Part shown: positions 46,864-60,395 of the stretch, one piece after another
How positions within the stretch are numbered: position 1 is the stretch's first letter
How the letters are laid out: each line of letters opens with the position of its first letter
Origin: Geothrix sp.
Lineage (GTDB): Bacteria > Acidobacteriota > Holophagae > Holophagales > Holophagaceae
DNA: 64,000 nt
Assembly (NCBI GenBank): GCA_030681515.1
Contig: JAUXSE010000045.1
Location: forward strand, 1 to 64,000
Direction of reading: 5' to 3'
Made by a program: the position numbers and the translations under genes
The notes under the pieces: model-generated
Told to the model about the DNA's origin: nothing
The model's input: the letters and a program-made list of their open reading frames with translations, nothing else
Database searches by the model: none

Positions 46864-48024
46864 TCAGTACAAAGCGGAGATGGCGCCCACGCTGAAGGTG
46901 GGGTGCAGGTCCATCAGCGGTCTCGGAGGCGGGGTGTGCTGGATGTCGCTGAAGCCCGCGTGACGCAGGGCCGCGTCCCAGGCCTCGGGGGTGAGGAAGC
47001 CGTGGCGGGGGCGCCAGCGGGGATCGAGGGTCACTCCGGTGAAGCTCTTGATGAAGCCGAAGAAGAATTCCAGGTAGAGGGGCGTATCCAGATCGGGTTT
47101 CAGGCATTCCCCGATCACGAGGCGGCCGCCGGGTTTCAATCGGCTGCGGAGGTCCCGCAGCGTGGCTTCGAGGTCCTGGGCCACGTGCAGCACGTTGATG
47201 CCCACGATGGCGTCCAGGCTGGCGGCAGCGACGCCCTGGTCTCCGAGGGGGCGGTTCAGGTCCAGCAGCTGGAAGCTGAGGGGCAGCCCCGGCGCGGCGG
47301 CCTTCAGATCGCGCTGGGCGCGGCGCAGGAAGGCCGGCGCCACATCGGTGAACCGGTACTCCGCGATGCGGGAGATCCAGCCCTCCTCCGCGCCCTGGCG
47401 GGCCAGCAGCTGGGCGAAGGAACCCGCGCCGGCGCCCAGCTCCAGCACGCGGGCTCCTTCCGGCAGACCCTCCCGCAGGGCCAGCAGGGTGAGCAGGTTG
47501 TTGGGGAAGTAGCCCAGGTTCTCGTTGCGGAAGTAGGCCAGCCACAGGGGGAACAGGGCCAGGTCGAAAAGCAGGCCTTCGCCCGCCTTGCCCTCGGTGA
47601 AGAAGGGCAGGATGTGGGACCGCACGCCGTCCAGCAGATCGAAATTGGCGCCGTGGCCCGGAGCCTCGGTCTCCATGGCGTCGCGGATGCCCGCAAGGTC
47701 CAGATCCGGTTCGCCGTTCAGGGTGAAGACATCGCCAGCCTGCGTGAGCAGGCCTTCGATCGCCAGGAATGGCAGCATCCAGGCCAGGGGCTTGCGCACC
47801 TGGCCGGGCAGGCCCTCGCAAAGACCGTCGAGGGTGGTCCCGGCCCGCAACCGGGCCTCCCAGCCCAGGTCGTACAGCAGCAGCAGGCAGATGCGGGCGG
47901 TGTAGAGTCCCGAAGCCCGGTGCAGCACCAGGAAGGGCCGGGTGAAGAGCCGCGCGATCTCGGGGCCCCGCGGCCCGAGCAGATCGAGGCGGGGCGCCTG
48001 GATGGGACCGAGGCTCAGGGCCAT
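46864..48024 (-). CDS. Class I SAM-dependent methyltransferase
   Basis: A 386-residue protein. An N-terminal helical domain (about 1-190; ARLFTRPFLVLHRASGLYTARICLLLL) may be a dimerisation or winged-helix unit. It is followed by a Rossmann methyltransferase with motif I VLELGAGAGSFAQLLAR, an acidic residue after strand 2, VGINVLHVAQDLEATLRDLRSRLKPGGRLVIGE (motifs IV-VI) and a C-terminal FSDIQHTPP strand. The layout recalls O-methyltransferases and polyketide-type methyltransferases. The acceptor is unknown. Its start overlaps the prs stop by one base (TGATG), so the two genes are coupled. Confidence 0.85.
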   Translation of the reverse strand: MALSLGPIQAPRLDLLGPRGPEIARLFTRPFLVLHRASGLYTARICLLLLYDLGWEARLRAGTTLDGLCEGLPGQVRKPLAWMLPFLAIEGLLTQAGDVFTLNGEPDLDLAGIRDAMETEAPGHGANFDLLDGVRSHILPFFTEGKAGEGLLFDLALFPLWLAYFRNENLGYFPNNLLTLLALREGLPEGARVLELGAGAGSFAQLLARQGAEEGWISRIAEYRFTDVAPAFLRRAQRDLKAAAPGLPLSFQLLDLNRPLGDQGVAAASLDAIVGINVLHVAQDLEATLRDLRSRLKPGGRLVIGECLKPDLDTPLYLEFFFGFIKSFTGVTLDPRWRPRHGFLTPEAWDAALRHAGFSDIQHTPPPRPLMDLHPTFSVGAISALY

Positions 48025-48971
48025 CAGTCCATCATCTCGCTGATGCTGCGTCCCCCGTGGATGCGCAGGATCGCGTCGCCGAAGAGGGCCGCGGTGGAGA
48101 GCACCTTGAGGTAGGGCAGGGCCTTGGCCCGCTCCGGCGATACCGGAATGCTGTCGGTGACCACCAGTTCGTCGAGGTTCGCGGAATTGAGCGTCTCCAG
48201 GGCGTTGCCCGAAAGCACCGGGTGGGTGACGCCCACGCGCACGGTGCGGGCGCCGAATTCCCGCAGGATCCGGGCCGCCTCCTTGATGGAGCCGCCGGTG
48301 GCGATCTCATCGTCGTAGATGATCGCGTCCTTTCCATCCACGTCGCCGATGAGGGCCACGCTCTGGGCCTTTTCGGAATCGTCGAAGCGGCGCTTGTCAA
48401 TGATGGCCATGGGCACGGACAGGCGCTTGGCGAAGTGCCCCGCGAACTTGGCGGCCCCGGCATCCGTGGCGACCACCACGGCGTTGGAGAGATCCTTGGA
48501 CTTGAAGTAGTTCGTGAGGATGGGCGTGGCCAGCAGCTGATCCGCGGGCTTGCGGAAGAAGCCGAGTATTTGCGGGGCATGCAGGGTCATGGTCAGCACC
48601 CGGTCGGCGCCGGCGGTCTCCAGCAGATCCGCCACCAGGCGGGCGGTGATGGAAATGCGCGCCTCGTCCTTCTTGTCGCTGCGGGCGTAGGGGAAGTAGG
48701 GGAGCACCGCCGTGATGCGGGCCGCTGACGCGAACTTCAGCGCGTCAATGAGGATCAGCAGTTCCAGGAGGTTGTCGCTGACGGGCGGACACGACGACTG
48801 GATGACGAAGACATCCGCTTCGCGGACGTTCTCCTCGATCTTCACCTTGATGTTTTCGTTCGAGAACCGGGTCACCTTCAGCCGGCCCAGCGGCATGCCC
48901 ATGTGGGTGGTGATGCCCCTCGCCAGCTCCGGGTGGCTGCTCCCGGAAAAGACCTTCATCTCGCCGAACAT
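48024..48971 (-). CDS. prs: Ribose-phosphate pyrophosphokinase (PRPP synthetase)
   Basis: A 315-residue cytosolic enzyme that makes PRPP from ribose 5-phosphate and ATP for nucleotide, His and Trp synthesis. It shows KVFSGSSHPELARGI, the flexible loop region PYFPYARSDKK, the metal-binding LHAPQILGFF, and the PRPP loop IIYDDEIATGGSI. The last varies from the usual DDxIDTAGT of class I enzymes but keeps the acidic pair. The start ATG 48971 has GGGGGA upstream. A frame extending to 49025 lacks a ribosome-binding site. Confidence 0.93.
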   Translation of the reverse strand: MFGEMKVFSGSSHPELARGITTHMGMPLGRLKVTRFSNENIKVKIEENVREADVFVIQSSCPPVSDNLLELLILIDALKFASAARITAVLPYFPYARSDKKDEARISITARLVADLLETAGADRVLTMTLHAPQILGFFRKPADQLLATPILTNYFKSKDLSNAVVVATDAGAAKFAGHFAKRLSVPMAIIDKRRFDDSEKAQSVALIGDVDGKDAIIYDDEIATGGSIKEAARILREFGARTVRVGVTHPVLSGNALETLNSANLDELVVTDSIPVSPERAKALPYLKVLSTAALFGDAILRIHGGRSISEMMD

Positions 48972-49046
48972 GGATCCCCCGATCGTCCGCCCAGTGTAGC
49001 CGACCGGCCGGGTGGAGGCCGTCACATGGAAAAAACGGAAAAACTG

Positions 49047-49701
49047 GGGACAGGATTAACAGGATGAAAGGATGGATGAACAGGATTAAAGATGGGCGGA
49101 GTCTGCCTCGGCTGGGCTGACCAGGGATCCGCCGCCAAACAGGGCGACATATAGAGACGGGATGGAATCGAGGACTGAGAAACGGGCCCGGGGCAGTACC
49201 CGGAGGTTGGGGCGTTCGAGCTTCACGCCTTCGGCATTTCCTTTTGTGTGCTTGGCCACCGGCAAGCCACTGAGGGAAGGCATCGGTTCGCCCGGGCCGC
49301 CCCCAAAGAAGAGAAACGGGCCCAGTTCCAGCGTGGATGGATCAAAGTGGGTCCAGACGACACAGGCTGAAGGCTTAACAGAGAGGCCCATGTGGATGTT
49401 TTGCCGTGAAGTCTTGGCGGTACGGGCTGAGGATTTGAACTGGACATGGCGGGTGATTCCATTTGATTCAAGAACGACGTCATATCCGGCCCGATCCACC
49501 GATGGATGCGAGATTTCGAGGGAGGCGTTGTCGTGGATCCAGGAATGTTTCAACAGCTCCCCGAGCACCAGATGCTCCAGCAGATGCTCTCTGTACACGG
49601 ATTGGTGGGTGTCGAGCATCATGGTCGGTACCGGGGTTGGTGTTTCGCTTCTAAGGCTTGAATCCTGTGAATCCAGCCATCAATCCTGTTAATCCTGTCC
49701 C
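49047..49701. mobile_element. Inverted-repeat-bounded cassette carrying one nuclease-like gene
   Basis: Imperfect inverted repeats of about 45-50 bp (left 49047-49092, right 49658-49701) share an identical 19-bp core GGGACAGGATTAACAGGAT and further ACAGGATT blocks. The enclosed DNA is visibly less GC-rich than its surroundings. The same repeat pair bounds a 204-bp empty element at 59571-59774. The cassette lies between prs and murA. Confidence 0.65.
49086..49622 (-). CDS. PD-(D/E)XK nuclease-like (DUF4365-type) protein
   Basis: A 178-residue soluble protein. The segment DRAGYDVVLESNGITRHVQFKSSA gives D-x14-QxK, the core of a PD-(D/E)XK nuclease fold. A helical N terminus (YREHLLEHLVLGELLKHSWI) carries the Glu residues that often precede it, as in DUF4365-type proteins linked to mobile elements. 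Codon use is more AT-rich than neighbouring genes. The stop codon lies inside the left inverted repeat, and the start is 36 bases from the right one, so the gene occupies the entire cassette. Adjacent ATGs at 49622 and 49619 are both possible. The fold assignment is by motif only. Confidence 0.7.
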   Translation of the reverse strand: MMLDTHQSVYREHLLEHLVLGELLKHSWIHDNASLEISHPSVDRAGYDVVLESNGITRHVQFKSSARTAKTSRQNIHMGLSVKPSACVVWTHFDPSTLELGPFLFFGGGPGEPMPSLSGLPVAKHTKGNAEGVKLERPNLRVLPRARFSVLDSIPSLYVALFGGGSLVSPAEADSAHL

Positions 49702-49708
49702 GGCTTTT

Positions 49709-51010
<1,302 letters not shown>

Positions 51011-59553: not shown

Positions 59554-59570
59554 GAAACCGCAAGAAAGCT

Positions 59571-59774
59571 GGACAGGATGAACAGGATTAAAAGATTGGA
59601 TTAACAGGATAAAGTTTCCTAGTTATTGGCCCAGGCGGATCGTAACTGCTGTATTCGGGCCTTTTCACGTTCTTTCGCGGTTCAATAGGCCTTTGAATTT
59701 CAGGCTGAGACAAGCCGATAATCACGTAAAGATTTAATCCTGTTAATCCGGCAATTCATCCTGTAAATCCTGTC
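59571..59774. mobile_element. Empty inverted-repeat element of the same family as the nuclease cassette
   Basis: Arms 59571-59610 and 59736-59774 are imperfect reverse complements built from ACAGGAT/GGATTAACAGGAT blocks in the same order as the arms of the 49047-49701 cassette. The ~125-bp interior has no gene. A further pair, AACCGC(AA)GAAAG at 59556-59568 with CTTTCGCGGTT at 59672-59682, is interleaved with it. Confidence 0.65.
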
Positions 59775-59804
59775 AGCGCCTTTCAGCCATCGACCCGGTG
59801 GCGC

Positions 59805-60395
59805 TCAGTTCCGCAGCTCGATGGCCAGCAGGAACCGGTCGCCGGAGGAGAGGCGCTCTTTCACCTGGGTGAAGTTCAGATCAAAGGTCTCGGTTTCGCC
59901 GGGCTTGATGGTGCCGACCTTGGTGCCGCCGGAGGCCACGCCCAGCAGGCGTCCATCCTTGTCGAGCACCGCCACGGCGAAGCCCGGAACCTTGGGGTAC
60001 TTCCCGGTGTTGGTGACCTCGACCTGGGCCCGGGTGCCGAACTCGGCGCCCTTGAACAGGTTGAAGAACCCCGCCTGCACGATGCGCTTGTTGAAGAAGA
60101 TGCTGCTCACCTTCAGGCCATCCAGGCTGATGGACAGGGGGAGGGTGCGGTCCCAGGCGAAGGCGTGGCTTTCGGAGTAGAAGGAAAGCGGAGCCCCGGG
60201 GAGGGAGGCGGGGGCCTGGGTGGCCGTTGGCGTCGGTGTCGGTGCCGGTGCCGGTTTGGGGGGTGCGGGAGCGGCGGCCGGAGCCGGGGCCTGGACCGGG
60301 ACCGGGGCTTCCGCGGTCGGGAGCGGAATCTGGAGGGGGGGTTCCTGGGCCAGGCCAAGGGTGGCGAGGAGGAGGAGGGTCGGGGTCCGCATCAT
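59805..60395 (-). CDS. Exported hypothetical protein with Pro/Ala-rich linker
   Basis: A 196-residue protein with a signal peptide ([17 protein letters not shown]). A Pro/Ala/Thr low-complexity linker spans about residues 18-66. A beta-rich C-terminal domain follows (VSSIFFNKRIVQAGFFNLFKGAEFGTRAQVEVTNTGKYPKVPGFAVAVLDKDGRLLG), resembling a FxLYD-like or Ig-like domain. Function is unknown. It overlaps the upstream zinc-ribbon gene by ATGA and is presumably co-expressed. Confidence 0.78.
   Translation of the reverse strand: MMRTPTLLLLATLGLAQEPPLQIPLPTAEAPVPVQAPAPAAAPAPPKPAPAPTPTPTATQAPASLPGAPLSFYSESHAFAWDRTLPLSISLDGLKVSSIFFNKRIVQAGFFNLFKGAEFGTRAQVEVTNTGKYPKVPGFAVAVLDKDGRLLGVASGGTKVGTIKPGETETFDLNFTQVKERLSSGDRFLLAIELRN

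Follow-up and report, generated by a model that had tools for sequence, protein, structure and literature searches.

The region between prs and murA in a 64,000-nt stretch of a 3.2-Mb Geothrix genome (the window) carries an insertion delimited by arms in inverted orientation, each a series of short tandem units, and the same arms bound a second, gene-less insertion elsewhere in the window. Our favored reading, which we hold with somewhat better than even confidence, is that both are members of a pan-prokaryotic family of minute mobile elements in which a GxxExxY nuclease (TIGR04256, PF13366) would act on the arms of its own element and also serve gene-less copies in trans, with a different nuclease substituted for it in the window. 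An earlier note on this DNA had proposed a non-autonomous element family of which one member had acquired or encodes a nuclease; the paired arms are indeed dispersed, but this description proved too narrow in that the gene regularly found between such arms is GxxExxY.

Insertions with shared arms in Geothrix

Both elements and their neighbors are placed as follows:

48024–49025, minus strand: prs (ribose-phosphate diphosphokinase), neighbor gene
49029–49708, no strand: whole inserted element, with outer limits inferred from an alignment of the prs–murA junction in 20 Geothrix genomes
49047–49091, plus strand: left arm of the prs–murA element, with a ACAGGATTAACAGGAT box and a GGATGAACAGGATTAA box ca. 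21 bp inward
49086–49622, minus strand: predicted PD-(D/E)XK nuclease gene (178 aa), the sole open reading frame between the arms, with E16, D48, Q61, and K63 invariant among relatives
49657–49701, minus strand: right arm of the prs–murA element, an inverted copy with both boxes
49709–51010, minus strand: murA, neighbor gene
59554–59806, no strand: second element (253 bp), gene-less, inserted precisely between the stop codons of two convergent genes
59571–59613, plus strand: left arm of the second element
59733–59776, minus strand: right arm of the second element

The arms of both elements are built of tandem ACAGGATTA units in inverted orientation (chance expectation, 0). At the prs–murA element, the core GGGACAGGATTAACAGGAT forms an exact inverted pair (49047–49065, plus strand; 49683–49701, minus strand; 0 expected in 100 shuffles), which bears out the inverted arms with an identical 19-bp core that the earlier note had described. 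The complementarity of these arms reaches 64 nt at 78%, and an A-rich stretch outside the boxes, AAAAAGC, is mirrored as GCTTTTT. Across the Geothrix genome, ACAGGATTAACAGGAT has 42 matches (at most two mismatches) compared to one for the reversed control, and these yield ca. ten inverted pairs that are complete, with sizes from 76 to 655 bp, besides single arms and contig ends, as had been anticipated for the core. The consensus of sixteen arms from eight elements reads AAAAAGCnnGGACAGGATTAACAGGATTnAAnGnTGGATTAACAGGATT, and the same elements are found in named Geothrix records.

The loci are shared by 46 genus relatives, and we compared the prs–murA junction across 47 genomes of the genus. 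The element is absent from G045, G037, G038, G014, and G036, providing the empty sites in close relatives that an insertion predicts. An intact ortholog of the enclosed gene is present in G031 (89% protein identity), where the left arm is degraded, and in G024, at a contig end. Genome G020 retains part of the nuclease gene with both arms, and only short arm pairs are left in G027 and G026; elements of this kind decay through internal deletion with their arms staying behind. We rejected G025 and G022 as virgin sites, as arm scraps remain there that mark decayed copies. In G032 (L094), the junction holds a different inverted repeat with CGCGAAAG units of the CCGCGAAAGGCGCGAAAAAACGCGAAAG type, and in further Geothrix relatives (L096, L097, L098, and L099) the gap is occupied by what looks by eye like a phosphoribosyltransferase-like gene, with no element.

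The second element has degenerate copies of the core with 2–3 mismatches to GGGACAGGATTAACAGGAT (59570–59588 and 59758–59776). Its insert is present in G000, G025, G026, and G027, with AG on either side, and ten relatives have the empty site AATTAG/TTCCGC, at which the stop codons of the convergent genes overlap; in the filled site, the insert junction gives the right-hand gene a new stop codon. These empty sites set the limits at 59554–59806, so that the insert runs 17 nt and ca. 30 nt past the visible arms. The earlier note had thus rightly seen a gene-less element with the same arms, but its extent of 204 bp (59571–59774) has to be revised to 253 bp. The only target repeat is the 2-bp AG (59553/59807), and the RNA fold of the element is unusually stable (z = -4.7).

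At a third locus, C60 of G000, eight species have an ACAGGAT element that carries GxxExxY and at least ten lack it, the flanking genes being 9–12 bp apart at the empty sites. No clear target duplication was seen at C60, and no consistent one across the insertion sites that we compared. Judged against their empty sites, the elements at all three loci (prs–murA, C60, and the second element) are insertions.

Some ACAGGAT elements contain nested arms, e.g., CGCAGAT and CACGAAG arrays (L035:2750-3237, L031:9168-9609, and L033:1039-1364). At several contig ends, ACAGGAT arms adjoin the ends of an insertion sequence (TTGCACTTGGAACTTGAAACCGCC, TTGCACTTGGGGATTGAGCGCGCC; L031:1105, L033:109, L034:108, L036:109, L040:117, and L042:108) with a transposase tail that appears IS30-like by eye, as if it targeted ACAGGAT palindromes.

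The nuclease gene of the prs–murA element

The enclosed gene differs from its surroundings in composition (58% GC compared to 69% for the window), and its stop codon (TTA, 49086–49088) falls within the left arm, in the second ACAGGAT unit, both in agreement with the earlier note. The D...QxK motif reported there is also present, albeit with the spacing D48-x12-Q61-x-K63 instead of x14. A structure model of the product (pLDDT 82.9, pTM 0.78) retrieved SPARDA (Z 8.5, rmsd 3.3, 119 aligned) and Hjc (Z 8.3, rmsd 2.9, 106 aligned) as top matches, followed by RecU, HincII, and I-Ssp6803I. All best matches are PD-(D/E)XK nucleases, as a nuclease fold had been surmised, and by its motif and modeled fold core the product belongs to this superfamily.

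While GxxExxY is the regular gene in such arms, including the ACAGGAT arms of C60, the window gene has no match in NCBIfam or to PF13366 and falls outside the GxxExxY family. Its product instead scores 17.9 bits (E 0.003) against Pfam PDDEXK_5 (PF11645), short of the gathering score of 26.1, and is weakly similar to a homing-endonuclease model and to I-Ssp6803I (PDB 2OST; Pfam PDDEXK_5) in sequence as well as in fold. Unlike I-Ssp6803I, the gene comes without an intron and is bounded by inverted arms, and we treat this resemblance as a lead.

The gene is under purifying selection (dN/dS 0.11 compared to the G031 ortholog), and genomes that carry it have at most one copy. Relatives are found in viral contigs, on plasmids (34 records), on chromosomes, and in two distant acidobacterial genomes; eleven of them, including the G031 copy, were searched for arms, and none had arms beyond chance. 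Since the family occurs elsewhere without arms, "acquired" fits better than "encodes" among the options of the earlier note, and the gene is probably captured cargo, a borrowed nuclease that replaces GxxExxY between the arms. The economical reading of its route of entry would be that, in an ancestor of Geothrix, a roaming nuclease gene landed within a pair of ACAGGAT arms and was kept for its own sake. One relative (L076:1477-2343) has an extra N-terminal domain that by eye resembles the core-binding domain of tyrosine recombinases.

GxxExxY nucleases and their arms across phyla

The C60 gene is a clear member of the GxxExxY family (PF13366, E 2e-40), in which D66, E76, and K78 (L142 numbering) are invariant in four proteins. 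A GxxExxY model of middling quality (pLDDT 73) has the Cas4-like SSO0001 as best Foldseek match (E 3e-4, probability 1.00) and resembles Cas4 and lambda-exonuclease-like nucleases, placing the family in the PD-(D/E)XK superfamily by its D...ExK motif and modeled fold core.

For an assessment independent of the arms, GxxExxY loci were gathered by protein from Acidobacteriota (54 of 149 genomes) and genomes of other phyla, with shuffles and off-centre windows as null model; swapped flanks proved unsuitable, since arm types are shared among loci and such a null is thereby contaminated. Inverted arms exceed all 100 shuffles at 47 of the 57 usable loci, and an arm score of at least 16 is reached by 74% of GxxExxY loci compared to a single one of 107 windows shifted by 800 bp. 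These arms comprise about three tandem units (CACAGAG, CGCAGAT, CACGAAG, GCCAAG, CGCAAAT, ACAGGAT, and others), and the five GxxExxY genes of G000 have five different arm types. Geothrix genomes with the C60-type nuclease contain a median of 15.5 ACAGGAT arms compared to 0 in those without (Mann-Whitney p 4e-5, kinship ignored), yet G013, G026, and G027 have many arms and no C60c-type copy was found at the C60 site. The presence of GxxExxY in 26 of 30 ACAGGAT-bearing genomes is not evidence of enrichment, as these genomes have no matched control set. At the C60 site, the gene is under purifying selection across Geothrix species (dN/dS 0.05–0.18, dS 0.6–2.5). Family members occur in eight plasmid and two phage records; none were found in the viral contigs that we searched. 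In a related genus (G137), a GxxExxY cassette bounded by GCGGAG arms lies within an IS5-like element, and the two have multiplied together (L255:1134-2511 and ca. 40 more places), many copies having gene-internal deletions with the arms kept.

A scan for the arm pattern over 84,980 species genomes found at least 115 stretches in at least 14 phyla, including one (methanosarcinal) archaeon. The matches listed comprise Pseudomonadota, Acidobacteriota, Verrucomicrobiota, Bacillota, Chloroflexota, Kiritimatiellota, Thermodesulfobacteriota, Spirochaetota, Actinomycetota, Planctomycetota, Nitrospirota, Bacteroidota, and Hydrogenedentota; among them, adjacent arms are mostly convergent (97, with 8 divergent and 11 same-way), and most are gene-less hairpins, with a median size of 99 bp. 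Seven hairpin loci matched no family in Rfam. Where ACAGGAT-type arms do enclose a gene, GxxExxY is the commonest, being intact in Geothrix, a spirochaete (L142), Muproteobacteria (L208), Thioalkalivibrio (L209), and Pelotomaculum and present as a remnant in Thiosymbion (L167). Another cargo is seen in Thiosymbion at L176:6514-7174, where ACAGGAT arms surround what by eye appear to be a HicB-like open reading frame and a PIN-like fragment.

We mapped arm types onto a tree of 89 GxxExxY proteins (ca. 124 columns, many forks weak). Arm type changes 17 times on this tree compared to 46.2 times when shuffled (0 of 200 shuffles as low), and 14 compared to 40.0 times with automatic labels alone, nine of the labels having been set by eye. 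Core columns, with N- and C-terminal ends cut off, give the same 17 compared to 46.2, so residues encoded within the arms cannot drive the match. Rows below 65% identity give 18 compared to 32.3 changes, and the division of units ending in T from the rest gives 2 compared to 18.4. The nearest row from another phylum shares the arm type in 31 of 56 cases, where 11.1 are expected (0 of 2,000 shuffles). From these sequence comparisons, arms and GxxExxY look cognate, with arm type following the nuclease lineage across phyla; we read this as cognate recognition because the motif is kept over distances at which unselected flanking DNA would not keep one. Since arms and gene are linked, part of this covariation is plain co-inheritance that is not fully separable.

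Possible mechanism, alternatives, and known systems

The arms of the family consist of inverted tandem 6–7 bp units at a spacing of 9–10 bp, which together with the spacing of ca. 21 bp would put the units on one face of the helix. We propose that a GxxExxY nuclease of the ACAGGAT type binds tandem arm units of its own type as a multimer and cuts, after which host repair would insert or copy the element. Gene-less arm pairs may use GxxExxY in trans, much as a transposase serves miniature elements, and the second element of the window (59554–59806) would be a copy that moved in this way. At 49029–49708, a plasmid- and virus-associated PD-(D/E)XK gene would have taken the place of GxxExxY and been kept by selection, either for a function of its own or for having assumed the part of GxxExxY in mobility.

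A rival reading, in which the 49086–49622 gene is itself the mobility nuclease as a swapped, I-Ssp6803I-like enzyme acting on ACAGGAT arms, seems quite unlikely to us. Its superfamily, its position between the arms with the stop codon inside one of them, its low dN/dS, and its weak I-Ssp6803I similarity would agree with this role, as would the G020, G027, and G026 copies at this site, which have internal deletions but retain the two arms; however, eleven relatives have no arms beyond chance, the G031 gene is intact next to degraded arms, and no genome has more than one copy. It is unlikely, too, that the arms are structural or regulatory features (in RNA processing, termination, or protein binding) spread by unrelated machinery, with the genes as passengers and the match of arm and nuclease as co-inheritance, in the manner of rRNA intervening sequences. 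The strong RNA hairpin and the presence of arms around other genes (the HicB-like and PIN fragments of L176) point in this direction, but the motif is kept across phyla at 50–60% protein identity, where unselected flanks would be saturated, and no terminator-like site was scored in a terminator scan of the window element.

Support for such passengers also comes from genes for four-helix-bundle proteins (TIGR02436) in Acidobacteriota, which have inverted tandem arms of 7–8 bp units at all 26 usable loci (L395–L424, 1501 onwards) with motifs of their own (TAGGCATTAGGCATT, GGCAGATGGGCAGAT, and GGGACCTGGGACCT); three or more GxxExxY-type units occur in only 2 of these 26. Related to this family are the S23 proteins, which are encoded in rRNA intervening sequences. 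Such intervening sequences have been portrayed as selfish elements whose ends form a stem of 28 bp (PMC4990558). The four-helix-bundle family, which is not a known nuclease, thus shares the architecture and counts against the explanation by GxxExxY mobility. That two protein families without relationship have this architecture, and that their arm repertoires differ, supports protein-specific arms and weakens the case for nuclease cleavage as an essential step. We find it very unlikely that GxxExxY and the window nuclease are host-beneficial genes (e.g., in defense) in intergenic hot spots with arms that regulate or protect them. Low dN/dS values, the relatives on plasmids and viral contigs, and the patchy distribution would fit, but no curated defense model was matched above chance level and gene-less arm pairs outnumber gene-bearing ones. 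Against our own proposal, GxxExxY at C60, which has stayed fixed at one site through dS 0.6–2.5, resembles a retained host gene no less than a selfish one.

Returning to the proposal of a mobile family centered on GxxExxY, several known systems are comparable. REPtrons combine REP/REPIN sequences, i.e., paired short palindromic intergenic repeats with many copies per genome, with TnpA-REP (RAYT), and share with our elements a matched enzyme gene between like repeats and copies that are proposed to move in trans (PMC8266576). They differ in that REPs have GTAG and an HUH tyrosine enzyme, in place of tandem 6–7 bp units and a PD-(D/E)XK nuclease: GTAG is absent from 16 aligned arms, which read AAAAAGCnnGGACAGGATTAACAGGATT...GGATTAACAGGATT, and the genes between the arms matched nuclease families only in Pfam and NCBIfam, with no HUH tyrosine transposase. 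MITEs and their parent insertion sequences likewise combine gene-bearing with many gene-less copies through common inverted ends, but our elements have tandem-unit ends and no DDE or other transposase, and we saw no regular target duplication. The 23S rRNA intervening sequences share a single gene of ca. 120 aa, terminal inverted repeats, a long stem, and a patchy distribution (PMC4990558), but here the protein family and arm motifs are different and the sites lie outside rRNA genes, at prs–murA and between convergent genes, with a nuclease gene or none.

The text of the openly accessible journal papers that we searched on GxxExxY and PF13366 contains nothing on arms and describes no mobility of the family. 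Our results suggest an undescribed kind of tiny mobile element, for which the chance that a separate class is warranted is substantial. With slightly less than even confidence, we propose that GxxExxY and its arms form such an undescribed class in bacteria and archaea (ca. 0.5 kb, a lone PD-(D/E)XK nuclease, coevolving tandem-unit ends, and hairpins moving in trans), with a parallel four-helix-bundle class that includes the rRNA intervening sequences.

This wider system of GxxExxY and arms is a larger finding than the element of the window itself. A great many genomes have GxxExxY annotations with no function assigned, and in many phyla arm repeats of the CACAGAG, CGCAGAT, CACGAAG, and ACAGGAT types are scattered between genes; should arms and nuclease be cognate, a single explanation would account for both. 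The arm motif of each lineage would then be a ready DNA target with which binding and cleavage are testable at once, and natural switches of arm type would allow the mapping of specificity. If true, our proposal would mean that miniature elements can also spread by a route that uses only a nuclease, besides those already known.
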